Below the pieces are notes generated by a model. It had not been told where the DNA came from, did no database searches, and saw only the letters and a list, made by a program, of their open reading frames with translations. The translations under genes were made by a program, and so were the position numbers. Below, piece by piece: positions 13,144 to 37,104 of a DNA stretch of 38,490 bases (the stretch's first letter is position 1; the number at the start of each line of letters is the position of its first letter). The DNA lies in the NCBI GenBank assembly GCA_017860575.1, contig JAGDMS010000057.1:1-38490 (forward strand). The letters are read 5' to 3'. The DNA is from Deltaproteobacteria bacterium (GTDB lineage Bacteria > Desulfobacterota > Binatia > HRBIN30).

Positions 13144-15147
13144 ATGATCGAATCCCTTGTCGGTAGCCTCTCAGCGGCGATCATCGCATCCGGTTTCGTC
13201 TTTAGCGCCTATGTTCTGTCTCTGAGGCTCGTCGGATCCCGGCGGATTTGGATTCGCTGGGCGGGCACGATTGCGGGCGTGATCTGGCTCGCCACGGCGT
13301 TGTTCCATTTCCTTTCTTTTCTTCGTCTCTTCAATCGCAGCTGTGCGGTAGTTTCGGTTCTTGTGCTCTCTCTGGCTGTGTGGTCTTGCTGCGGGAAGGC
13401 CAAAGAACTGCTTCGGGCTCTCGCTCATGACCGAACGTTAATGAGGCGAACAGGTCGGCTCTGCCTGCGGAGTCGTCACAGGGTGATGGCTGCACTCGTC
13501 ATCGCCTTCGCCTTGCCGGGTCTGTTCCGCGCGCTCCTGCTGCCGCCCATCGGTTGGGACAGCCTGACGTATCACGCCGTCAAGGCCGGTATGTGGGTGC
13601 AGAGCGGGGGCGTGGACTCGATGAATGGACCGGGCCCCTGGGCGTATCACCGGAACATGCTGGCTGGAGGCGAGGTGTTCCTCGCCTGGGGCATGCTCCC
13701 ATTCCATTCGGATGTCCTCACCTCCGTCGTGGAGGTCTCACAGTTCATGGCCCTGGGTCTCTGTGTGATGGTTCTTGCACGTCAACTCGGTCTGCGAGAG
13801 CCATTTGCCACAACCGTCGCAGGATTCGTGCTCGCGTTGCCCACCGTGCGACTCCTGGTGGGAAGCGGGTACGTCGAAATCGGACTTCTGCTCGCCTTGG
13901 TGAGTGGCCTCGTCCTCGGCCTCGGAGCGGAAGGACCCAACGCGAACACCCTGGTCCTGGCGGGCGGCGCCCTCGGCGTTTCGGCCGCCACGAAGCTCCC
14001 GATGGTGCCGCTGTGCGGGCTGCTGCTCCTCGTCTTCGTGGCCCGAAGTGTCTTCCAGGGTCCCGGGTCCGCTCGAGCCTGGTCCATTGCGGGCGCAGTG
14101 GCGTTCTGCATCGCGCTCTGCCCCTGGCTGTTTCTGGCCTTCGAGAGGACAGGGTATCCGTTCTCGCCTGTGCCGATCGCCTTTGCCGGTGTAGTTCTGG
14201 GGAGGGCGACGCCAGAGGTTGCCTGGTACCTCCAGCTGCCCGGATCACTGCCGAATGGGCTGGCTGGCGAGGTTCGCGTTCTCCTCAGTGTATTCGGCCT
14301 CCCAGTTGTCCCCAACGAGGCCCTTGGAGCGCTTGCGCTCGTTCCACTTGTCGGCGCTCCGTTTGGCATGACTGCGCTGATTCGGAAGGCTCCATCGTAC
14401 GTGCTGCCAGTCTGCGTCGTGATCGCTGCGTGCGGAGTTGCCTACTTCTCTCCGAGTTTTGCAGTCGTCCGCCACAATTGGGTGGTCATGTACGGCGATC
14501 TCCTGCTCGCGCTGTCCCTTCTCAACATGGCCCGGCTCGCCCTCTATGGCTTCTCGGGGGTATCTCTATGGGCGACCCTTCTCGTTGTCGTTGGGCTTGG
14601 CACGCTCGCGATCCTGGCACGGAGTGCGTGGCGACTGCGAGGGCTCACGGTCAGACTGGGGTGTCTGGTTCTTCTGGGAGGAATCGCGACCGCTGCCTTC
14701 GGGACACTCCGGGGGACACTGCGCGACGATTTCTGGCGAGACGATTTTGCGATCCACGCAAGGCCGACATACTGGGTGACTGCCTTGCCCTACGTTGATC
14801 AACCTGGCGTTGTCCATCGGATCGCCCTGACATCGGGACCGCTCCAAGCGCTCGACAACTGGGGCGCCTATCCCTTCATGGGCCGTGCCCTCCAGAACGA
14901 GTTGATCTATGTTCCCGTTTCCAGGGATGGCAACATTCACCACTTCGGGGACGACGCCCGGAACCGTGATCTGGTCGAGACGGCAGACTACGAAAGCTGG
15001 TGCAAGCGGCTCGTCGATGAAGGCGTGACGGAGGTGATGAGCTTCAGTCCATCCTCGCTCGAACTGCGGTGGATGGGGCAGCACCCCGAACGGTTCGAAC
15101 CGCTGGCCGGCGAGGAAGGGAATTGGGGGTTGTTCCGCCGCCGATAG
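13144..15147 (+). CDS. Large polytopic membrane protein, GT-C-like
   Basis: 667 aa, many TM segments; GWDSLTYHAVKAGMWVQSG loop after the early TMs resembles GT-C acidic loop. Confidence 0.7.
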   Translation: MIESLVGSLSAAIIASGFVFSAYVLSLRLVGSRRIWIRWAGTIAGVIWLATALFHFLSFLRLFNRSCAVVSVLVLSLAVWSCCGKAKELLRALAHDRTLMRRTGRLCLRSRHRVMAALVIAFALPGLFRALLLPPIGWDSLTYHAVKAGMWVQSGGVDSMNGPGPWAYHRNMLAGGEVFLAWGMLPFHSDVLTSVVEVSQFMALGLCVMVLARQLGLREPFATTVAGFVLALPTVRLLVGSGYVEIGLLLALVSGLVLGLGAEGPNANTLVLAGGALGVSAATKLPMVPLCGLLLLVFVARSVFQGPGSARAWSIAGAVAFCIALCPWLFLAFERTGYPFSPVPIAFAGVVLGRATPEVAWYLQLPGSLPNGLAGEVRVLLSVFGLPVVPNEALGALALVPLVGAPFGMTALIRKAPSYVLPVCVVIAACGVAYFSPSFAVVRHNWVVMYGDLLLALSLLNMARLALYGFSGVSLWATLLVVVGLGTLAILARSAWRLRGLTVRLGCLVLLGGIATAAFGTLRGTLRDDFWRDDFAIHARPTYWVTALPYVDQPGVVHRIALTSGPLQALDNWGAYPFMGRALQNELIYVPVSRDGNIHHFGDDARNRDLVETADYESWCKRLVDEGVTEVMSFSPSSLELRWMGQHPERFEPLAGEEGNWGLFRRR

Positions 15148-20509: not shown

Positions 20510-21685
20510 ATGGCCATGTCAAGCGATCAGGGAGCAGGACTAGCGACCCGTGAGAATGCAGACCGGCAGGACAGGGGGGCTATCATCCTGTTCGTGGCGG
20601 TGGGCCTTGTCGTTCTAGTTGGGATGATCGGTTTGGCGGTCGATCTGGGCCACGCTTACGTCAACAAGTCCCAGCTCCAGAACATCGCGGACGCCTGTGC
20701 CCTCGCGGGGGCGTCGGCGCTGAATGGCACAGCGGCGGGTATTCAGGACGCCGAAAACCGAGCCACGGATTATGGGATTCCCACTCAGTATCTTGCCAAC
20801 CGCTCGGAGTTCAATACGCAAGCTATCGCAATCCCCACTACGGCGGTGACGTACTCGGCAGCGCTGGGAGGCCCCTGGCTTGACAAGGCAACGGCTCAAG
20901 GCGTCGCAGATACGATCCGCTTCGTGCAAGTCGTCGTGCCGTCTCAGCCGACGGAAGTCTTCTTTGCCAAGGTCATCCCGGGCATTTCAAGCGTCATGAA
21001 CATTGGAGCGGACGCCGTCGCTGGACAGGAGCCGCAGACAGACGTGTGCCAAGGGCTGGACCCGTTCTCTCCGATAGCCCTGGATCTGAATGATCCGGAC
21101 AACTTCGGTTACTTGGCCGGGCAGACCTACTCTATGCGCCTGTCCCCGGGCGAAGCGGACAAGAACTGTTCGGACTATGGGCTAACCGGCAGCGTCACGG
21201 GGAATTTCGGCCTCGCCGACCCATCTGCAACGCAACCCAGCCTGACGGTCTTCAGGAACAACTTGCTCAATGGCGACTACACCCATTGCGTCCCGGTTCT
21301 GAGCGACAATGCACTGGACACGACCACAGGGAATATGGGGAACGCCGCCCTGACGGCAATGGGAGAGCGCTTTGACCAGGACTTCAACCTTAACCCGTAC
21401 CTGGGTGATCCTGCTTCCGTTTACAGCCAATACCAGACCCAGTACCTTACCTCAAACACTAATTTCCGACGGATTATCAGAGTTGCGTTCAACAACGGAG
21501 ACATTCCACAAGGAAACCACGAGTACACCGTCGTGGGCTACGGCTGTTTCTTCTTGCCGGTCCGACCCACTGCCGAACCGCCATCGGGGGCAATCTGCGC
21601 GATGTTCGTAGGCGCGTGTGGTCAATCAGGTGCGCCCACCGGAGGCCACCACGCGAGCATCACGAAACCTGTGTTGTTCCGCTAG
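20510..21685 (+). CDS. TadG-like protein with N-terminal Tad (TadG/Flp-like) domain
   Basis: DRGAIILFVAVGLVVLVGMIGLAVDLGHAYVNKSQLQNIADACALAGASALNG. Confidence 0.9.
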   Translation: MAMSSDQGAGLATRENADRQDRGAIILFVAVGLVVLVGMIGLAVDLGHAYVNKSQLQNIADACALAGASALNGTAAGIQDAENRATDYGIPTQYLANRSEFNTQAIAIPTTAVTYSAALGGPWLDKATAQGVADTIRFVQVVVPSQPTEVFFAKVIPGISSVMNIGADAVAGQEPQTDVCQGLDPFSPIALDLNDPDNFGYLAGQTYSMRLSPGEADKNCSDYGLTGSVTGNFGLADPSATQPSLTVFRNNLLNGDYTHCVPVLSDNALDTTTGNMGNAALTAMGERFDQDFNLNPYLGDPASVYSQYQTQYLTSNTNFRRIIRVAFNNGDIPQGNHEYTVVGYGCFFLPVRPTAEPPSGAICAMFVGACGQSGAPTGGHHASITKPVLFR

Positions 21686-21715
21686 CGTCTGGCCCGTTGA
21701 AGAGGCGAGCGTCCA

Positions 21716-22183
21716 ATGACCAGAACAAGACATCACCTATTCCGGGATCAGCGAGGCCAAGAACTGATCGAGTTTGTCCTCGTGATGCCTCTCCTCGTGT
21801 TGATGCTCGCCGGGGGTGTGGAGTTTGGAAGGGCGTTCTATACCTACAACATTCTCACGAAGTCCGTTCGGAACGCCGCAAGATATCTCTCCGACACCCA
21901 GATTTCTCCCGTTGGGCCTGGGGTCATAGCTGCGTCATACGTGACCAAAGCCCAGAACCTTGCTGTGTTTGGAACTGTGTCCGGTACGGGCACAAGGATC
22001 GTCCCCGGTCTCCTGACGAACCAGATCAACGTAGCAACGGCCCAACCCCGGCCTGGCCAGTTCTATGTCACGGTCACCGCCAATTACCCCTACCCGCCAG
22101 TCTTCGGGTTCCTGCTCCCAGGGATTACGTTTCGACCGAAGGTGACCATGCTGTTTGTGGGGGTTGTTGTTTACGGAACATAG
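21716..22183 (+). CDS. TadE-like pseudopilin
   Basis: DQRGQELIEFVLVMPLLVLMLAGGVEFGRAFYTYNILTKSVRNAARYLS. Confidence 0.9.
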   Translation: MTRTRHHLFRDQRGQELIEFVLVMPLLVLMLAGGVEFGRAFYTYNILTKSVRNAARYLSDTQISPVGPGVIAASYVTKAQNLAVFGTVSGTGTRIVPGLLTNQINVATAQPRPGQFYVTVTANYPYPPVFGFLLPGITFRPKVTMLFVGVVVYGT

Positions 22184-22208
22184 GGTGGGCCGAGGGAGAA
22201 GGTGAACG

Positions 22209-22676
22209 ATGATCCGCAGGGTTTCAGCTAAAGACGACAGGGGTCAGGCCCTCGTTGAGATGGCCCTCGTGGCCGTGATGTTCTTCTTTGTGTTCTTTGG
22301 AATCCTCGAGTTCTCGCGGGCACTGTTTACCTACAACACCATCGTGCAATCGACCCGTGCCGCGGCGCGCTGGGCCGTGGTCAACGTCGGCAGCAACGCC
22401 GACGCGGCCAACATCACAAAGACAAAGAACATCGTCGTCTACCACAATCCCGATGGACTTGGCACCCCCATCTTGAGCGGCCTCACGCCGTCCCTCGTCA
22501 GTGTCTCAGTTCAGACAATCGAGAGCGACAGTCAGGGCCGAGCAATTAGCCAGAAGATCTTGGTGAAGGTTACAGGTTTTCAGTTCCGATTCGTGCTGCC
22601 GATTGTCGGCACCATCACGATCCCAGCGTTTGAGACGTCTTTGTACACCGAGAGCATGGGCTTCGTTCCAAGCTAG
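22209..22676 (+). CDS. TadE-like pseudopilin (second)
   Basis: DDRGQALVEMALVAVMFFFVFFGILEFSRALFTYNTIVQSTRAAARWAV. Confidence 0.9.
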   Translation: MIRRVSAKDDRGQALVEMALVAVMFFFVFFGILEFSRALFTYNTIVQSTRAAARWAVVNVGSNADAANITKTKNIVVYHNPDGLGTPILSGLTPSLVSVSVQTIESDSQGRAISQKILVKVTGFQFRFVLPIVGTITIPAFETSLYTESMGFVPS

Positions 22677-25306: not shown

Positions 25307-26282
25307 ACCGACGCGCCGCCAGCTGCTCGCTGCGGTGCCGCTCACTCTTCTCGCCGCCTGCCGCAGGTCACCGTACAACAAAGCCGACTTCGTCGTAGCG
25401 CCTCAATCGACGATGGCGCTGCTCCCGGCGGCGAGCTACTCGATCGACATCTCGAACATCATCTCCCGCGGCCTGGACCTTCTCGGTCTCTCCGTTCGCG
25501 GACGACGGGTCCTCCTCAAACCGAATCTTGTCGAGTACGAAGCGGGGATGATGATCAACACCAACTCTATGGTGATCGCGGCCGCAATAGATGCGCTCCG
25601 CAGGGCTGGCGCCGGCGAAGTGGTCGTGGCGGAAGGGCCTGGCCACAGGCGCGACACGGAATACCTGTTGGCAGCCAGTGGTCTGGCCAATCTGCTGCAG
25701 GAGCTCCGTGCGCCGTTTGTGGACCTCAATCTCGATGACGTACGACCGACAAAACTGCGGAGTCGGTTCAGCGGCCTCGAGGAGTTGTCACTGCCCGTGG
25801 AGGTGCTCAGGTCCGACTTCGTGGTGTCGATGGCGAAGCTCAAGACACACCACTGGGCGGGCATGACCGCGAGCATGAAGAATCTCTTCGGCGTCGTGCC
25901 GGGCGCCGTCTACGGCTGGCCCAAGAACTTCCTCCACGCGCATGGCATCGAGGAGTGCATAATCGACCTCACCGCGACCATTCGCCCGGCGTTCACCATC
26001 GTTGATGCGGTCGTTTCGATGGAAGGCGACGGACCAATCATGGGCCAGCCGCGGAACACGGGCTTCCTGGCGATGGGCACCGATCTCGTCGCCGTGGATT
26101 CCACCTGTGCGCGAATCATCGGGTTGGATCCGAGGAAGATCGGGTACCTTCGGGTGGCATCGCAGTTTCTGGGGAACTCCGAGCCCGGACAGATCCGACA
26201 GCATGGGGAACCGCCAACGCGCTTCGCCACGACATTCGACATCGTCGAGCCACTCCGATCGTTACGGCTTGAGGGGCGATAG
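25281..26282 (+). CDS. DUF362 domain protein with twin-arginine-like lipoprotein signal
   Basis: TRRQLLAAVPLTLLAACR; LLKPNLVEYEAGMMINTNSMVIAAAIDALRRAGAGEVVVAEGPGHRRDT; KLKTHHWAGMTASMKNLFGVVPGAVYGWPK. Confidence 0.85.
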   Translation: MRQQPSQSRPTRRQLLAAVPLTLLAACRRSPYNKADFVVAPQSTMALLPAASYSIDISNIISRGLDLLGLSVRGRRVLLKPNLVEYEAGMMINTNSMVIAAAIDALRRAGAGEVVVAEGPGHRRDTEYLLAASGLANLLQELRAPFVDLNLDDVRPTKLRSRFSGLEELSLPVEVLRSDFVVSMAKLKTHHWAGMTASMKNLFGVVPGAVYGWPKNFLHAHGIEECIIDLTATIRPAFTIVDAVVSMEGDGPIMGQPRNTGFLAMGTDLVAVDSTCARIIGLDPRKIGYLRVASQFLGNSEPGQIRQHGEPPTRFATTFDIVEPLRSLRLEGR

Positions 26283-26431
26283 GGACCCTTTCTTGAATCC
26301 GTTCCTTTGGGGCGTTCAAGACGTCGGCGCCAAGCTCATGCCTAGCGCGCCCTCGCGGGTGTTTAGCTACGCGGAGGCGGAGGCGACACGCCTGAAGACG
26401 TGGTTTGGCGACTCTCTGTCCGGGGTAGTGT

Positions 26432-26487
26432 TCGTCGCCTTTCGATTGGATTTACTGAAAAAGGTCGTCGCCTGATTGGACTTTCTG
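26432..26487 (+). repeat. Pair of imperfect direct repeats upstream of flp promoter (candidate enhancer/UAS)
   Basis: TCGTCGCCTttcGATTGGATTTACTG (26432-26457) and TCGTCGCCTGATTGGACTTTCTG (26465-26487): 21/23 matching positions with a 3-nt gap. Confidence 0.6.
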
Positions 26488-26553
26488 CCCGGTTTCGAGG
26501 TTTGATTCATAGTAGCTACCGAGAAAACCCAAGAAAACGCAGCCGCAAGGGAG

Positions 26554-26569
26554 TGGCACTCTGATTGCT
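26554..26569 (+). promoter_or_regulatory. Sigma-54 (RpoN) -24/-12 promoter for Flp pilin
   Basis: TGGCACTCTGATTGCT matches TGGCAC-N5-TTGCW with canonical spacing; 207 nt upstream of the pilin ATG. Confidence 0.75.
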
Positions 26570-26776
26570 AAAGTTCTGTGCAATGGCATGGAGGCGGCAA
26601 CGGGCCGACTGAAATGCGTGGGGAATTGTGATGACCAAACCTGCTGTTGCCCCATCCGTTGGCCGCCCTCCCCCGGGATGTTGAGCTGGAGGACTCTCTC
26701 GGGTACCACGACACGAGGTTCATGTTCTGAGAGTGTTTTGTATCGTTAACTCGACCGTCAAGATGAGGAGTCAGTC

Positions 26777-26950
26777 ATGAAGCAGCTTCTAGTTCGGTTC
26801 ATCAGCGAAGAGGAAGGCCAGGATCTGATCGAGTACGCGTTGCTGGCCGCCATCATCGCCCTCGGGGCCACTGTCGGGATGATCGCCCTTGCGGGTGGCA
26901 TCAACACGAAATTCAACGACATCAGCACGACCCTGGGCACCGCGTCGTAG
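26777..26950 (+). CDS. flp: Flp/Fap-type pilin
   Basis: 57 aa, not in ORF track: MKQLLVRFISEEEGQDLIEYALLAAIIALGATVGMIALAGGINTKFNDISTTLGTAS*; EEEGQDLIEYALL is the classic Flp prepilin site; GATGAGGAG upstream. Confidence 0.96.
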   Translation: MKQLLVRFISEEEGQDLIEYALLAAIIALGATVGMIALAGGINTKFNDISTTLGTAS

Positions 26951-27007
26951 TTCAGCTCGATCGCGCTCGGAGCCTCGCTCGAGTTGTCACAGGTGCGAGG
27001 AGACTGA

Positions 27008-27042
27008 CCAGGCGGGCCTCGGGGCTCGCCTGGGCTGTTTTT
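27008..27042 (+). terminator. Rho-independent terminator/attenuator between flp and prepilin peptidase
   Basis: CCAGGCGGGCC-TCGG-GGCTCGCCTGG, 11-bp stem with one G-U, followed by GCTGTTTTT. Confidence 0.75.
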
Positions 27043-27110
27043 GGGCCTTCGGCTCTCAGCGCTCTTCTCGTTTGTTGCGGTTTTGAGTCCCAGCCTCGCG
27101 GTTAGCGGAT

Positions 27111-27638
27111 ATGACCTTGGATGCGCATACAGCCGCTTCATTCTGCGTAGCAACCGTCTGTCTTATTGCGTGCGCGTACGACGTCCGCTTCCGGCGGATT
27201 CCGAACGCACTCACGTTGGGAGCCGCCGCTGGCGGCTTGGCATTCAACGTGTTTCTTGCAGGTCTTCATGGCGCTGGCGCCAGCCTGGCTGGCTTGCTGG
27301 TCGGAACCGCTCTCTTCTTTCCGTTCTTCGCCCTTGGGGGGCTGGGAGCGGGTGACATTAAGCTCATGGGCGCGATCGGCGCATGGCTTGGCCCGACTGC
27401 CGCTCTGTGGGCATCGCTGTTTGCGGCCATGGCGGGCGGGGTGTTCGCACTCCTGCTAGCCCTCTACCATGGCTACGCGCGAAAGATGCTCGGTAATCTC
27501 TGGCTCCTTCTCGGTCACTGGCGCATGTTTGGCATCAAGCCAATGCCGGACCTGACGCTGGCTGCGTCCAGAGGGCCTCGGCTTGCGTATGCCCTGCCCA
27601 TCACTGTCGGAACACTGGTCGAGCTCTGGCTGCGGTGA
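27111..27638 (+). CDS. cpaA: Prepilin peptidase CpaA/TadV (A24)
   Basis: ACAYDVRFRRIPNALT and GLGAGDIKLMGAIGAWLGP active-site aspartate regions. Confidence 0.92.
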   Translation: MTLDAHTAASFCVATVCLIACAYDVRFRRIPNALTLGAAAGGLAFNVFLAGLHGAGASLAGLLVGTALFFPFFALGGLGAGDIKLMGAIGAWLGPTAALWASLFAAMAGGVFALLLALYHGYARKMLGNLWLLLGHWRMFGIKPMPDLTLAASRGPRLAYALPITVGTLVELWLR

Positions 27639-27998
27639 GCAGTGCACCGTGGTGCAGGGGCTTGACAATTCTCCCCTCAGCCATCGACATAGTGGATCGA
27701 ACGAGAGTAAAATCCGCCAGCGAAGTGACATTGCGGATCAGGTTTTGTGTGAGGAGATGGAGTGTTCGCTTTCCCTTCGCTTGTCGCAGGCGCACCACCA
27801 CGCTTTCTGTAATGTGACGCGCACGGCCGTGTGCAGCTCCGACACACACGAGCCGATATGAGAGTTGCGACTCGGCCCTGGCACCGCAGCGCCTCGACAC
27901 GAGCATCCGCTATGGCGGCGGATCGATTGCAGGAGTCACAGGGGAGTCGGGGTCCTAGCGGCTGGAGCCTGAGAGCCGACTTGTAGGGGGTACGCTAT

Positions 27999-28850
27999 AT
28001 GAATCGTGGCCTTCGGACGGTGTTGGTGCTTGTGGTAGCACTCACGATGGCGGGGCTGGCCAGCTACGCCGTGTACCGTGGTATCCAGAATATCCCGGTG
28101 CGTGAGGTCGAGGTTGCCCAGGCGTTCACCGTGGTCGCAACGAAGAGTCTGCCGGTCGGAGTCATGATTTCTCGCGACGATGCGAAGGTTGTGCCCTGGC
28201 CCGCTGCGAATCCCATCGCGGCAGGCTTTTCGCAGGTGGACCAGGTCGTGGGAAGGGGTCTGATTGCGCCGGTCGCGGAAAACGAGCCGATTACCGAACC
28301 AAAGCTCGCCCCGCGCGAAGCAGGGGCAGGCTTGGCGCCGTCAATACCTCCTGGCATGCGGGCGATTTCCGTGAGGGTCAACGACGTGATTGGCGTGGCC
28401 GGTTTTGTGGTGCCGGGCAGTCGCGTCGACGTGCTCGTCACGGTGCGGCAACAGGACGACATGATGAACCGTGTCGTCGTTCCCAACGTGCTGGTTCTCG
28501 CCGCTGGTACCCGCTACGATTCGGCGCAGGCGAAGGACGGAAAACCGATACCGACGGCGGTTGTGACGTTCGCCCTGACGCCACAGGATGGTGAGCGAAT
28601 CGCTCTCGCCTCGACCGAGGGGAAGATCACTCTGGCCCTGCGCAACCCGCTCGACGCCCAACCGATTGAGACGCCGGGTATTCGTCTGAGCAGACTCCTT
28701 GGATCAACGCCAGCGCCGCCCGTTGAGACGAAGGTCAGAGGCATCAAGATGATGGTCGCGGCCTCGCCGCCGCCGCCACCACCTCCTCCGCCGGTCTACA
28801 AGGTCGAGATGATCAAGGCCGCCAAACGTACAGAGGAGGTCGTGAAGTGA
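27999..28850 (+). CDS. cpaB: Flp pilus assembly protein CpaB/RcpC
   Basis: N-terminal TM, SAF-like LPVGVMISRDDAKVVPWP, MRAISVRVNDVIGVAGFVVPGSRVDVLVTVR. Confidence 0.93.
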   Translation: MNRGLRTVLVLVVALTMAGLASYAVYRGIQNIPVREVEVAQAFTVVATKSLPVGVMISRDDAKVVPWPAANPIAAGFSQVDQVVGRGLIAPVAENEPITEPKLAPREAGAGLAPSIPPGMRAISVRVNDVIGVAGFVVPGSRVDVLVTVRQQDDMMNRVVVPNVLVLAAGTRYDSAQAKDGKPIPTAVVTFALTPQDGERIALASTEGKITLALRNPLDAQPIETPGIRLSRLLGSTPAPPVETKVRGIKMMVAASPPPPPPPPPVYKVEMIKAAKRTEEVVK

Positions 28851-30301
28851 AACACAACGCCCTGAGACCTCGACGAGTCGCCTCGCAGGCGGCGTTGTGC
28901 CTGACCCTGGCGTTTGGGGCCGCGACCCCGCTTGCGCAGGTCGCACCACCACCGTCATCACCGCCTCCGGCCGCGCAGAATCCAACCGCCATAGAGAAAG
29001 TGTCATTGACGTCCGGTCGCTCGACCGTACTCATGACCGATTTTGATGTTGTCCGCGTTGCGGTATCCAACCCTGCCGTCGCAGACGCCACCGTTGTCGC
29101 GCCACGGGAGGTCCTGATCGATGGCAAAGGGAGCGGGACCGTCAGTCTGGTCATCTGGGGAGCAGCTCGTCGCAACCAGTACGACATCGTCGTCGAACCG
29201 GCTATTTCGACGCTGCAACAGAACCTCCAAACGCTGTTCCCCGGAGAAGACATCCAAGTCAACCTCAATGACGAGGCAATCGTGCTGACCGGCCGCGCCT
29301 CGAGCACGGCGGTCATGCTCAAGGCTGGCGAAATTGCGGAGGCCAGTTCCTCCAAGAACAACGTCATCAACCTTCTGCAGTTACCGGGTGGGATGGTGAG
29401 CCAGCAGGTCATGCTGCAGGTCAGGTTTGCCGAAGTGAACCGCCGCGCCCTCACCGAGCTTGGCGTTTCGTTCTTTATGGGCCAGAACAGCCAAAATGAC
29501 TGGGCGGGTCGGACGACGACAGGGCAGTTCGCTGCTCCTGGTTTTGACCAGAACAATACGACGTTCAGCGATCTCCTGAATCTGTTCATCTTCAATACGA
29601 AGTACAACGCCGGCGCGGTGATTCGGGCCCTCAAGGACGGCGGCTACTTCCAGAGCCTTGCCGAGCCGAATCTGATTGCGTACAACGGCCGTGAAGCGAG
29701 CTTTCTGGCTGGGGGCGAGTTTCCCGTGCCGGTGGTGCAGGGTGGGACGGGTCTCGTCGGCAGTGCTGTTACCATACAGTGGAAGGAATTTGGCGTGAGG
29801 CTTAAGTTCACACCGACAATTGCGGGTGATGTTATTCGTTTGAAGGTCAGGCCGGAGGTCAGCGCCCTCGATTTCAACAACGGAATCACGCTCTCCGGGT
29901 TCCGTGTTCCCGCCCTGACGACCCGATGGGCCGAGACCGAGGTCGAGCTTCGGGACGGACAGTCATTCGCCATCGCCGGGCTGTTGGATAACATCTCGCA
30001 GGAGGACAAGCAGTCGGTTCCTTTCCTGGGGAGCATTCCGATCATTGGGTACCTGTTCCAGAGCAAGGCAGACCGAAAGGAGCGCACGGAGTTGATGGTG
30101 CTCATCACGCCACAACTTGTGCGCCCGCTGGAGCCCGATGAGGTGCCGCCTCTGCCAACTGACCTCAAACGGTTCCTTCCGGGCCTTGGTATCGGGTCTC
30201 AGTTGGAGGGAGGCGGCGGCCTCGTGGACGCCCCGTCAGAGAAAGCAGCTGACAAAGCGAAGCCGCCTGCTGAACCTGTAAAGCCTCCGGTGAAGAAGTA
30301 G
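28847..30301 (+). CDS. cpaC: Type II/III secretin CpaC/RcpA
   Basis: BON-like N-term, VMLQVRFAEVNRRALTELGVSF, ...AEPNLIAYNGREASFLAGGEFPVPV, FVPFLGSIPIIGYLFQS-type secretin C-term; GTG start overlapping cpaB stop. Confidence 0.95.
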   Translation: MKHNALRPRRVASQAALCLTLAFGAATPLAQVAPPPSSPPPAAQNPTAIEKVSLTSGRSTVLMTDFDVVRVAVSNPAVADATVVAPREVLIDGKGSGTVSLVIWGAARRNQYDIVVEPAISTLQQNLQTLFPGEDIQVNLNDEAIVLTGRASSTAVMLKAGEIAEASSSKNNVINLLQLPGGMVSQQVMLQVRFAEVNRRALTELGVSFFMGQNSQNDWAGRTTTGQFAAPGFDQNNTTFSDLLNLFIFNTKYNAGAVIRALKDGGYFQSLAEPNLIAYNGREASFLAGGEFPVPVVQGGTGLVGSAVTIQWKEFGVRLKFTPTIAGDVIRLKVRPEVSALDFNNGITLSGFRVPALTTRWAETEVELRDGQSFAIAGLLDNISQEDKQSVPFLGSIPIIGYLFQSKADRKERTELMVLITPQLVRPLEPDEVPPLPTDLKRFLPGLGIGSQLEGGGGLVDAPSEKAADKAKPPAEPVKPPVKK

Positions 30302-30315
30302 GGATAGGCGCACTC

Positions 30316-31467
30316 GTGGGTATGAGAGCGACAATCGTCGGCGCGGCTGACAAGCGGATTCAGGAGCTGCTGACAAGCTGCGGCATCAGTACGACCGCCA
30401 TCGCCGCCGCGGACTCGGCGAGCCGCATCCAGGCGGGACTCCCTTCCGCGGACATCTTCGTGCTGGACATGCGGGGACAGACCCGTATACCGGCCGCGCT
30501 TGTCAGTCTCAGGCAGCACCATCCCAGAACGCCGATTGTCCTGGTCGTCTCGAGCCTCGATCCGGTACTCATCCTGGAAGCGATGCGCGCCGGAGCCAGC
30601 GAGTGCCTGGTGGAACCGTTGAGCCAGGCCGAGACACAGGCAGCGATGACACGCGTCGCCGCCCACTTGAGCAGTGGCGTGAGTGGCCAGGTGTTTGCGT
30701 TTCTCGGCGCGAAGGGGGGCGTTGGGACCACGACTGTCGCCGTGAATGTTGCCACCGAGCTCGCTCGAATCGCGCCAGGCTCGACGTTGCTGATGGACCT
30801 GCACCTGGCGTATGGCGATACAGCGGTCTTCCTGGGTGCGGAGCCGCGTTTTTCCGTCATGGACGCGATTGAGAACACGGACAAGCTGGACAAGGCGTTC
30901 TTCCGAAGCCTGGTGGTACGGACGAAGGACGGTCTGGATCTGCTCGCATCGTCTGACCGTTCGATGATGGTGCCCATTGATGTCGAACGAGTGAGCCAGG
31001 TTGTGTCATTCGCGGCGCAACACTACCTCTATAGCGTGCTGGACGTCCCGCGTTCCGAACCGGCGGTTCTCGAGGGCCTGGAAGCGGTGAAGACGATCAT
31101 CATCGTGGCCAACCAGGAACTCGCGTCGGTGCGCAGCGCTGGTCGTATTGCGGCGACCCTGCGCCAACGCTACGGCAAGGACCGCGTCCGCGTCGTCGTG
31201 AGCCGATATGACCCGAAAGCCGAGATCGGTCAGGACGATGTCCAACGGGCCGTAAGCGAAACGATCAGGCATGTCTTTCCCAGTGACTATCGAACGGCCC
31301 TCGATGCAATGAACACCGGCCGTCCGCTGGTGCTGGGTAACCACAACCGGCTGTCAGCGTCGCTCGTCGCGCTCGCCCGCGATCTGGCCGGGATCGACGA
31401 GGCGGGCAGGCCAGTGCCGGCATCGGGCAGAATGTTCGAGAGATGGACCGGTCGGCGCAAGTCCTGA
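30316..31467 (+). CDS. cpaE: CpaE/TadZ family pilus assembly ATPase
   Basis: N-terminal receiver-like region, [25 protein letters not shown] Walker-A-like, [17 protein letters not shown]. Confidence 0.93.
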
Positions 31468-31490
31468 ACCCGGGGGAGAGGCGAGGAGCC

Positions 31491-32816
<1,326 letters not shown>

Positions 32817-32881
32817 CACTCCAACCCGCTCGAACAGCACACGATGTCGTTGCGCGACGGCTGCGCCACGGCACTTCGCCC

Positions 32882-33712
32882 ATGGTCACCCGCGCGGCGC
32901 TCCTGAAGGACGCGGCGCGCATGAGCGCTATCCCGGTATTGAATCAGTTACTCGGCCAGCGGAGGGCGTCCGTCGTCTCTCTGCAGAAGATGATCGATCA
33001 ATCGGGCGTGAGAACAAATGTCGGCACTGTGTTGCTGTCTTCGTTATGCCTTGGCCTGGCCACGTTCGTGATCGTCTGGTGGTTCTCGAGGGCTCTCCTT
33101 GTGGCACTTGGGCTTGGCTTGCTTGCCCTGACTCTGCCGTTCTTTCGCCTTCGGAGGGCGCGCGAGAAGCGGACGCGGAAATTCGAGGAGCTGTTTCCCG
33201 AGGCGATCGACCTGATTGCTCGTTCGCTGCGGGCGGGCCACGCCTTCACGACTGGACTTGCGATGGTTGCCGACGAGGTTCCGGATCCGGTGGGCAAGGA
33301 GTTCCGGCTGCTCTACGACCAGCAGAACTACGGTATGCCGATTCCCGATGCTCTCAGGACCTTTGGTGAACGCATACCGCTCCTCGACGCGAAGTTCTTC
33401 GTGACAGCGGTCCTCACGCAGCGCGACGCCGGCGGAAACCTCTCCGAGGTGTTGGACAACCTCAGTTCCGTCATCCGCGATCGCTTCAAGGTTAAGCGCG
33501 AGGTCCGCGCGAGAAGTGCCCACGGCCGATTGACCGGATGGATCCTGGCGCTCCTACCCCCGAGTCTGGCGTTGGCGCTCTATCTCGTGAGTCCCGAGTG
33601 GATGGGGTCGCTCGTCAAAGACCCTTTGGGTGTTAGGATGGTCATCGCGGCGATTGCCTTCCAGGTGATCGGCACGTTGATCATTCGGAAGATCGTGGAC
33701 ATCGAGTACTAG
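32882..33712 (+). CDS. tadB: TadB-like type II secretion F family protein
   Basis: KFEELFPEAIDLIARSLRAGHAFTTGLAMVADEVPDPVGKEFRLLYDQQNYGMPIPDAL; start uncertain (ORF open to 32741). Confidence 0.9.
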   Translation: MVTRAALLKDAARMSAIPVLNQLLGQRRASVVSLQKMIDQSGVRTNVGTVLLSSLCLGLATFVIVWWFSRALLVALGLGLLALTLPFFRLRRAREKRTRKFEELFPEAIDLIARSLRAGHAFTTGLAMVADEVPDPVGKEFRLLYDQQNYGMPIPDALRTFGERIPLLDAKFFVTAVLTQRDAGGNLSEVLDNLSSVIRDRFKVKREVRARSAHGRLTGWILALLPPSLALALYLVSPEWMGSLVKDPLGVRMVIAAIAFQVIGTLIIRKIVDIEY

Positions 33713-33727
33713 GGTCGGCAGACCGAG

Positions 33728-34660
33728 ATGTTGAACTTGCCCGTCAATCTGGTGGCAACGGTTGGGGCCGTCTTTCTGGCGGTTGCCCTGCTCACCGGCT
33801 TTGCCACCTATCGTGTTCTTCTCTGGAATGCGCCCGCCCGTCGTCGAGTCAGAGAACTCGCGCAACCACAGGGGAGAACCGTGTTATCCGACGTGGTCAC
33901 CGTCAGCCAGACGCCGTCGGCGTTGAAGCGGCTGTCCCGAATCGTCCCGAAGTCGGCCCGCGACATGAGCCGCCTGCAGCGGACGCTGGCGGCGGCGGGC
34001 TACCGCCGTCCCGGAGCGGCGGTTGTGTTCTCAATGGCGGAAGTGATCATCCCGGCCGTCTTTGCCGTTATTTCGATGCTCCTGCTCGGATTCCGCACGC
34101 GGACGGCATGGGGCGTGACCGCCTTTGTCGCTGTTGTCGGGTACTTCGTTCCCGGCGTGATTCTGGACCGGAAGATCGCTCTCAGGAGGAAGCAGATTCG
34201 GAACGGACTCCCCGACGTCCTCGACCTGTTGATCGTGTGCCTGGAGGCCGGGTCGAGCCTGGACCAAGCGATTGTGAAGGCTGGAGACGAACTGGAAATC
34301 ACGTACCCGATGTTGGCGGACGAACTTCGGACTCTCAATATGGAAACAAGGGCCGGAAGGCCTCGGATCGAGGCCTTCAGGAACCTCGCGCAACGCACGA
34401 AGGTGGACGACGTGCGAGCAATGGTGGCGATGCTGGTGCAGACAGACCGGTTCGGGACAAGCGTGGCACAAGCCCTGCGGACGTTCGCCGACTCGCTCCG
34501 GACCCGGCGCCGGCAAGAAGCCGAGGAACGGGCCGCAAAGGTCGGGGTCAAGCTCGTGTTCCCGCTCGTTCTGTGCCTGTTTCCCGCTTTTTTCGTTGTC
34601 GCTCTTGGTCCGGCGATACTCCGGTTCATTCATGTGTTCTTTGGAGCGGGGACACCGTAG
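33728..34660 (+). CDS. tadC: TadC-like type II secretion F family protein
   Basis: N-terminal TM; LPDVLDLLIVCLEAGSSLDQAIVKAGDEL; MLVQTDRFGTSVAQALRTFADSLRTRRRQEAEE. Confidence 0.93.
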   Translation: MLNLPVNLVATVGAVFLAVALLTGFATYRVLLWNAPARRRVRELAQPQGRTVLSDVVTVSQTPSALKRLSRIVPKSARDMSRLQRTLAAAGYRRPGAAVVFSMAEVIIPAVFAVISMLLLGFRTRTAWGVTAFVAVVGYFVPGVILDRKIALRRKQIRNGLPDVLDLLIVCLEAGSSLDQAIVKAGDELEITYPMLADELRTLNMETRAGRPRIEAFRNLAQRTKVDDVRAMVAMLVQTDRFGTSVAQALRTFADSLRTRRRQEAEERAAKVGVKLVFPLVLCLFPAFFVVALGPAILRFIHVFFGAGTP

Positions 34661-34727
34661 TGACTGCCGGCGGAGATTCCCACATTCTAACAGTCGTCGG
34701 AAATGAGTCCGACCGGAGGAGACACAG

Positions 34728-34817
34728 ATGTTGATGTACATCCTGCTTGGTGCCTTGGCCGTCGTGATCGTTCTCTACCTCATGCGCCGTCGCACACGCC
34801 TGAACAAAGATCAGTAG
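34728..34817 (+). CDS. 29-aa single-TM microprotein between tadC and tadD
   Basis: ATG with GGAGGAG at good spacing: MLMYILLGALAVVIVLYLMRRRTRLNKDQ*; hydrophobic segment then basic tail. Confidence 0.65.
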   Translation: MLMYILLGALAVVIVLYLMRRRTRLNKDQ

Positions 34818-34844
34818 CGCTGAGTCCCCGGATGTCGGTGCGCA

Positions 34845-35792
34845 ATGAGACACTCCCTTGGCTGCCTGTTCGTAACCGTCCTTGCGGCCGGGTGTGCGGC
34901 GCATCGGTCCCCTGACTTCAGCCTCTCGCCGGCGGTTCAATCCGGCTCTCTCGAATCATCGTCCAATGCTGCGACGACTGAGCCGGATTCCCTCTCCTCG
35001 TTCAACGCGAAGGTCAGGGCTGCCGTGGCCGCAGCCAAGCGGCCAGACAGGCCAGCGATCCCGACCATCGAGTCGGTGAATCCTGAGCTTGCGAGAGCGC
35101 TGGCCGCGTTGACGGCTTCGCCGACAGCCGCGAGCGAACGACGCGTTGCGGAGGCGTATCACAGCGTGGGTGTTCTCGACAAAGCCAACGACCACTTTGC
35201 CGAGGCCATTCGTCTGGACCCGAAGGACGGGTGGGCGTACGACGGGTCGGCACGCGTCTGGCGGGACTCCGGATTCCCGCAGTTTGGCCTTGGAGATGCT
35301 TACCGGGCGGTGTATCGCCTCCATGGCGCTCCTGAGTCGCTCAACACGCTCGGCACGATCCTCTTTGCGCTCGGACACTACTCCGAGGCGCAGGCGAGTT
35401 TCGAGCGAGCGCTCAAACAGCGTCAGGATGCGGCCTACGCTCTCAACAACCTTTGCTACGTTGCCCTGACGGTTGGCGACACCCCGGCTGCGGCTGTCGC
35501 CTGTCGACGCGCCCTCGAACGTGCGCCGGGTCTTAGGACCGCCCGCCACAACCTCGCGCTAACCTACGCGGCGAAAGGTGACCTCGCGGCCGCTGCATGT
35601 GAGTTCGCGGCCTCCGGGGATTCTGCGAGTCTTCAGTACAACCTCGGTGTGGTCCACCTCGCCTTGAGGCAGTACAAGGAAGCGGCGGTTGCCTTCAAGA
35701 CTGCGGGTCAACTCAATCCGGCGCTTCCTTTCGTGGGAGAGCGCGAGAGACAGGCGCTTGCGCTCGCAGGAGGAGCAGATGCTCGACGCTGA
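34845..35792 (+). CDS. tadD: TPR-repeat lipoprotein, TadD-like
   Basis: Lipobox VLAAGC; TPR-like repeats DKANDHFAEAIRLDPKDGWAY, LNTLGTILFALGHYSEAQASFERALK, YNLGVVHLALRQYKEAAVAFKTAGQLNP. Confidence 0.85.
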   Translation: MRHSLGCLFVTVLAAGCAAHRSPDFSLSPAVQSGSLESSSNAATTEPDSLSSFNAKVRAAVAAAKRPDRPAIPTIESVNPELARALAALTASPTAASERRVAEAYHSVGVLDKANDHFAEAIRLDPKDGWAYDGSARVWRDSGFPQFGLGDAYRAVYRLHGAPESLNTLGTILFALGHYSEAQASFERALKQRQDAAYALNNLCYVALTVGDTPAAAVACRRALERAPGLRTARHNLALTYAAKGDLAAAACEFAASGDSASLQYNLGVVHLALRQYKEAAVAFKTAGQLNPALPFVGERERQALALAGGADARR

Positions 35793-37104
35793 GACCTCAA
35801 CGGCGCCCACTATGCCGAGAGCACCGCGCACGCTCGAGGACACCGGCCTGAGCCCTGATCTCGTCCTCCAGATTGTCCTCAAGACGCTGCACCTCGCAGG
35901 GACGCTCAAGGGAACAGATCTGGCAGAGCGGCTGGGAGTGAACTTCCAGGTCATCCAGTCAAGCCTTGACGACTTGAAGTGGCAGCAGCACTGCGAAATC
36001 GTTGGCGCTGGCGAGACCGGGGCCCCATCCTTCAGATACCGTATCACCGACGCGGGTCGCGTGCGCGCGGCCCTGTTTCTTGATCAGAACCACTATGTCG
36101 GCAAACTGCCGGTGCCGCTCGCACAGTATCAGGCCTACATGGAGGATTTCCGGGCCGGCTTGCAGCGCCACATCACACCGGACCGTGTCCGGGAAGCGTT
36201 CTCGCATCTCGTTCTCAGTGATAGGGTTCTCGACCAGCTCGGACCTGCGATCTGTTCTGGCGACTCACTATTCGTCTACGGGCCGCCGGGAAACGGCAAA
36301 ACGGTGATCGCGCAGGCCATTGGGAACCTGCTCGAGGGCGATGTGGCGATCCCTCACGCGCTCGAAGTCGAGGGCGGCATCATCCGCATGTTCGATCCCG
36401 TCAGCCACAAGAGCGTGGTGCAGGAACCTGCTGCTGACGAGCCGTCGCTCGATCGAGCTGAGAAGGCCGACCGGCGGTGGATGCTCTGCAAGCGGCCGAT
36501 CGTGACCGTCGGTGGCGAGCTGACGCTGCAGGCCCTGGATTTGAGTTTCAGCGCGACCACAGGCTTCTACCACGCGCCCGTCCAGATGCTCGCCAATGGT
36601 GGCCTGCTCGTGATCGACGACTTCGGGCGGCAGCAGTGTGCCCCTCGCGACCTGCTGAATCGCTGGATCGTGCCGCTCGAGAGCCGTGTAGACTTCCTGA
36701 CCTTGCAGACTGGGCTGAAATTCGAGTTTCCTTTCGTCGTTCTGGTTGTGTTTGCCACCAACATCAAGCCCGTCGAGCTGGTGGACGAGGCCTTCCTCCG
36801 TCGTATCCACTACAAGGTCTTCGCCGAGAGCCCGACAACGCGTGACTTCGTTCAGATCTTCCAGAACTACTGCGACCTGGTTGGCGTGCCGTTCGATCCG
36901 CCTGTCGCCGACAGCCTGTTGCAGAACGTCCTGCATCCCCGGAAGATCCAGCTCCGCGGTTGCCAGCCCAGGGATCTGATCAACCAGGCGCTCGCACTCG
37001 CGGAGTATTCAGGTCAACCCCGGCGCCTGACGCCAGCCCTGCTGGAGGCCGCGTGCGACAGCTACTTCGTGGACGATCGGGAAATGCCGATCGCGCGCGT
37101 GTAG
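35779..37104 (+). CDS. AAA+ ATPase with N-terminal winged-helix-like domain
   Basis: Start at ATG 35779 with AGGAGG RBS; LAGTLKGTDLAERLGVNFQVIQSSLDDLKWQ (HTH-like); Walker A GPPGNGKT; Walker B LLVIDDFG; FATNIKPVELVDEAFLRRIHYK sensor region. Confidence 0.88.
   Translation: MLDAETSTAPTMPRAPRTLEDTGLSPDLVLQIVLKTLHLAGTLKGTDLAERLGVNFQVIQSSLDDLKWQQHCEIVGAGETGAPSFRYRITDAGRVRAALFLDQNHYVGKLPVPLAQYQAYMEDFRAGLQRHITPDRVREAFSHLVLSDRVLDQLGPAICSGDSLFVYGPPGNGKTVIAQAIGNLLEGDVAIPHALEVEGGIIRMFDPVSHKSVVQEPAADEPSLDRAEKADRRWMLCKRPIVTVGGELTLQALDLSFSATTGFYHAPVQMLANGGLLVIDDFGRQQCAPRDLLNRWIVPLESRVDFLTLQTGLKFEFPFVVLVVFATNIKPVELVDEAFLRRIHYKVFAESPTTRDFVQIFQNYCDLVGVPFDPPVADSLLQNVLHPRKIQLRGCQPRDLINQALALAEYSGQPRRLTPALLEAACDSYFVDDREMPIARV

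Follow-up and report, generated by a model that had tools for sequence, protein, structure and literature searches.

The window (the whole stretch of DNA analysed, 38,490 bases) contains a short gene, flp, whose product is recognised as a short pilin by a GxxxxEY motif and a hydrophobic stretch, and which matches PF04964 with an E-value of 1.9e-7 (31.2 bits, 1 bit under the curated cut-off of 32.2). Because the neighbouring genes are tadV, rcpC, a secretin gene, genes for TadZ-like and TadA-like ATPases and two T2SSF genes, the flp neighbourhood is identified from its gene content as a Tad locus (Table 1). The two T2SSF proteins, a TPR protein and a winged-helix AAA ATPase make up the rest of the machinery region. 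At the end of the tad cluster, positions 35689-37104 encode the last of these, with an apparent N-terminal winged helix, the AAA ATPase and weak Pfam/NCBIfam matches. Elsewhere in the window, positions 13144-15147 encode a 667-aa protein with zero Pfam matches, whose only relatives are distant ones (~32-34%) in two genomes of the order.

Table 1. Positions of features around flp in the window.
Feature	Position	Strand	Remarks
GGCGAC/GTCGCC repeats, tentative enhancer candidate	26382..26472		not significant
-24/-12 sigma-54 promoter element TGGCACTCTGATTGCT	26554..26569	+	exact consensus; conserved in relatives
Predicted 5' leader of flp mRNA, 197 nt	26580..26776	+	+1 predicted from -12 position
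flp, Flp/Fap pilin, 57 aa, begins MKQLLVRFISEEEGQDLIEYALLAAIIALG	26777..26950	+	PF04964 match
Intrinsic terminator (predicted): 11-bp GC-rich stem, 4-nt loop, T-run	27008..27043	+	after flp
Prepilin peptidase TadV/CpaA	27111..27638	+	PF01478
Sigma-70-like match TCGACA-18-TAAAAT	27684..27713	+	weak: 1 found, 0.5 expected
tad machinery	27999..37104	+	RcpC/CpaB, secretin, CpaE/TadZ-like ATPase, TadA/CpaF ATPase, more

The -24/-12 element and its conservation before Flp pilins

A DUF362 gene precedes flp and ends at 26282, and the 494-nt intergenic region between the two genes contains the -24/-12 element, with exactly the sequence and coordinates of the original prediction. It conforms to TGGCAC-N5-TTGCW with the fixed spacing, the GG of -24 lying at 26555-26556 and the GC of -12 at 26567-26568. 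When both strands were scanned, TGGCACNNNNNTTGCW was the single exact match in the window, which confirms the claim of a canonical consensus with correct spacing. By chance a mean of 0.02 exact matches would be expected in the window (2 of 100 dinucleotide shuffles have one). The weighted motif scan that had been proposed as a check gave 17.7 bits for the element and 12.7 bits for the runner-up, at 34464 (the matrix weights were an approximation of the published sigma-54 consensus). With up to two mismatches allowed, the motif carries no signal in the window (19 matches, while 18.0 are expected). Across the genome, matches with at most one mismatch numbered 171 vs 227 for a reversed control pattern, and loose-motif enrichment was rejected as evidence.

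Taking C26568 as position -12, the spacing places the predicted +1 near 26580, in agreement with the original prediction. The leader, put there at ~195 nt, was nearly right in length and comes to 197 nt when counted to the start of the pilin ORF. No Rfam family matched the leader up to E = 1, and its first 150 nt fold no better than shuffles; the idea that it contains a riboswitch or other known RNA was rejected.

To assess conservation, pilin genes were gathered from 150 class genomes, 396 phylum genomes and 80 GTDB loci. A site of at least 13 bits was found within 350 nt upstream of 61 of the 181 distinct pilins (vs 1 in reversed and 2 in complemented sequence). To be independent of these approximate matrix weights, a de novo search tallied every 4+4 dyad (gaps of 0 to 15) across the upstream regions of 83 non-redundant class pilins. 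The top dyad, GGCA-N7-TGCT, corresponds to the -24/-12 element and occurs in 34 of these regions vs 0.82 expected (log10 p = -41.7); the five best dyads are all registers of the same element, while the best of five shuffled sets reached a log10 p of -6.3. Secondary dyads (CAGA.GATG and similar) were set aside, since they derived largely from the coding region of the pilin paralogue in front. The original prediction had made conservation upstream of orthologous flp genes its test, and the element proves to be conserved, though not universal. In other genomes of its own family and order no Flp pilin was detected, so that the comparison includes no close orthologue.

Sites of at least 13 bits are present in 39 of the 83 class regions, and among the other 44 are later members of tandem arrays as well as some solitary pilins. 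In 20 loci of ~20 kb, about 29 of 50 such sites (counted by hand) have a pilin gene starting no more than 250 nt downstream. In the aligned sites, which were selected by score, the boxes are conserved and the spacer and flanks are near background. Tandem flp paralogues often carry their own -24/-12 sites in which the boxes are kept and the spacer bases changed, as in L255, where two paralogues have TGGCACGCAGCTTGCT and TGGCACACGGGTTGCT. Tandem flp genes in which most copies have their own element were seen in L255, L256, L258, L259, L260, L262 and L269. The distance from the element end to the start codon falls mostly into two groups among class sites (~45-145 nt and ~190-255 nt); in most site-bearing relatives the element ends ~45-110 nt before the ATG, and the window, with 208 nt, belongs to the longer-distance group. 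The element also precedes pilins of named Acidobacteriota (L078, L095, L103); among the Burkholderiales and Rhodobacterales pilins examined none showed it upstream, nor did most of the phylum-level ones. Judged from these upstream regions, the element is a lineage feature and not a general property of Flp pilins. We tentatively propose, at a little below even odds, that regulation by sigma-54 is ancestral for Flp pilins in the class and is their main control, wired gene by gene through duplicable, movable cassettes of promoter, pilin and terminator. If so, pilin dose could be tuned, or pilins chosen between, through activators.

RpoN and candidate activators

The genome encodes one complete RpoN with AID, CBD and DBD domains (TIGR02395, 443 bits), whose gene is preceded by an ABC ATPase gene and followed by a ribosome hibernation/S30AE gene. 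Across the class, RpoN was found in 144 of 146 genomes. One genome, G069, has pilin-linked -24/-12 sites (L270, L271) yet no RpoN match; its completeness is 87%, and rpoN may be absent from the assembly through incompleteness.

About 15 full sigma-54 interaction domains of activators are present in the genome, and none of the genes in the window encodes an activator. The product of 35689-37104 is not a sigma-54 activator, as it is without GAFTGA. In a more distant genome, G188, flp is immediately preceded by the gene of an NtrC-family response regulator (L283:3025-4419, minus strand; the same gene in L267), a likely pilin activator; DVU2114 of Desulfovibrio vulgaris is comparable. Activators also occur within about 10 kb of a pilin in L264 and L270. 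A similarity search with the L283 regulator singled out no activator in the window's own genome, the best candidate reaching 44% and several others 40-41%.

Upstream of the -24 element, GGCGAC/GTCGCC occurs in four copies (26382, 26407, 26434 and 26467, about 80-175 nt away). A 6-mer with at least four copies is found in about 9% of shuffles and the repeats are absent from relatives, which leaves them at most a tentative enhancer candidate; no significant enhancer repeat was found upstream of the element.

Elsewhere in the same genome, contig C601 (L238, L276) carries response regulator and histidine kinase genes, an exact sigma-54 site and, 193 nt downstream of that site, an ORF for a BON-domain protein. 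The regulator is of the NtrC family, and judging from gene order the set is probably another sigma-54 operon, in a layout usual for a sigma-54 regulon.

The second part of the original prediction, that pilin transcription would depend on RpoN and an enhancer-binding activator, is thus supported by a conserved element, a complete RpoN and plentiful activators, from which the dependence is predicted.

A proposed pilin transcription unit and alternative readings

The hairpin stretch directly after flp (51 nt) has a folding energy of -26.9 kcal/mol (z = -2.8), and terminator-like hairpins occur 3' of class pilins in 11 of 76 downstream regions vs 1 in the reversed control. In this way, promoter, flp and terminator fit a self-contained unit. 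The sigma-70-like match TCGACA-18-TAAAAT sits within the 360-nt gap before rcpC and is a possible separate promoter for the machinery operon. Together, the hairpin and this match speak for a monocistronic pilin transcript and separate transcription of the machinery genes, with readthrough possible. The proposal that pilin expression is separated from the rest of the tad machinery gains support from the terminator right after flp and from its counterparts in some relatives.

The main alternative accepts the promoter as real and has it drive the whole tad operon by readthrough of the hairpin, which would make RpoN a joint master switch. It is consistent with the shared strand of flp and the downstream genes, with the weakness of the sole other promoter-like match before rcpC, and with the predicted DVU2114 sigma-54 operon of D. 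vulgaris, which runs from the pilin through the tad genes (DORF39640-DVU2129, PMC4641369). However, the strong 11-bp stem with its T-run stands directly 3' of flp, and relatives have terminators following their pilins well above the reversed control, so that we consider readthrough into the whole operon unlikely, if still a serious contender.

It is quite improbable that the element is a chance match and that flp has a housekeeping (sigma-70 type) promoter, or another alternative one, missed by consensus scanning. Exact matches do arise by chance, since the 5.8 Mb draft genome contains 13 of them, several inside ORFs, and other sigma factors are possible, since tad flp1/flp2 of Bdellovibrio are under FliA and not RpoN (PMC5430801). 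Nevertheless, the position and spacing of the element, its conservation in class relatives and the low number of exact matches expected in the window argue for a promoter, and a crude consensus scan found no sigma-70-like promoter on either strand between 26283 and flp.

The origin of the locus bears on a further alternative. The tad locus, which in the window spans 20510-22676 and 26777-37104, is patchy: among 15 further genomes from the family and order, neither a Flp pilin nor a close RcpC homologue was detected. The assembly contains no 16S rRNA, and the nearest named relatives of TadA are from Acidobacteriota MAGs, with about 60-66% identity. The tetranucleotide profile of the contig correlates with the rest of the genome at r = 0.95, where halves of the rest correlate at 0.99. 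The locus may have been acquired; misbinning is less likely, and a plasmid origin was rejected (positions 26283-27200 matched nothing at the DNA level in the plasmid collection). A transferred or misbinned locus at which RpoN binds without productive transcription would agree with the missing relatives and the slightly deviating profile, but it is very improbable, as RpoN is nearly universal in the class, so that any host there could read the site, and the pilin ORF and machinery are intact. Because of this distribution of RpoN, the conclusion is independent of acquisition or misbinning.

The element as a working sigma-54 promoter for flp, including separate control of the machinery, is the best explanation of the locus, with a probability of roughly 0.9. 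The RpoN holoenzyme would bind the -24/-12 element in a closed state, which a bacterial enhancer-binding protein would open by ATP hydrolysis; this activator is probably a response regulator of the NtrC family whose gene lies in another part of the genome. Transcription would then run from ~26580 through the leader and the 57-aa pilin and mostly stop at the hairpin, so that the cell could produce its abundant pilin when needed, independently of the machinery operon starting downstream. The original prediction is right about the site and probably about the mechanism. Expression of the pilin very probably answers to a signal-dependent activator of its own and is controlled apart from the machinery.

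Tad/Flp pili drive biofilm formation and the attachment of cells to surfaces. If their pilin promoter is conserved and activator-dependent, pilin synthesis would be expected to wait for a signal, with the assembly machine built independently. The element could also serve comparative genomics as a marker in the search for the activators, with RpoN as the first gene of interest.

Comparison with known systems

Sigma-54 control of a Tad-type pilin is already known from D. vulgaris, which makes the present case less surprising than first thought. There, the sigma-54-dependent response regulator DVU2114 binds upstream of the pilin genes DORF39640-DVU2116 in a Cpa/Tad-like locus (Rajeev 2011, PMC3333781), and a paper on the sigma-54 regulome assigns it to pili (Kazakov 2015, PMC4641369). 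Both systems have sigma-54-dependent control upstream of Cpa/Tad-type pilin genes; however, D. vulgaris belongs to another lineage and its activator is known, with targets mapped by binding, whereas the locus in the window has no linked activator and has a terminator after the pilin.

For type IVa pilA, sigma-54 control is classical (PMC2725144), and the same paper cites a 5'-RACE mapping of the pilA start in Geobacter sulfurreducens. The likeness to pilA of G. sulfurreducens, Pseudomonas aeruginosa and Myxococcus xanthus (PilR, RpoN) lies in a -24/-12 pilin promoter with an NtrC-type activator, although type IVa pili are another class than Tad/Flp pili and the Geobacter pilR adjoins pilA. In Bdellovibrio, too, Tad pilin genes (flp1/flp2) answer to an alternative sigma factor, and one pilin, flp4, is regulated apart from the tad operon (PMC5430801); FliA differs in being of the sigma-28 type, with no activator requirement. 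Dedicated signal-dependent control of Flp pilins is also shared by the flp/tad systems of P. aeruginosa (PprB) and Pectobacterium (a two-component system, PMC3767616), which as far as described are not sigma-54 systems; in Pectobacterium, flp/tad genes were unchanged when the sigma-54 activator VasH was deleted (PMC3767616).

The main texts of a comparative sigma-54 study (PMC3162934) and of a 2025 regulon comparison (PMC12316311) make no mention of flp or tad. In the literature searched, which took in few subscription journals, class-wide and copy-by-copy conservation of the element before Flp pilins is undescribed. From the genomes compared here, a known kind of control is extended by an element that is conserved, and often repeated for each pilin copy, across a largely uncultured class.
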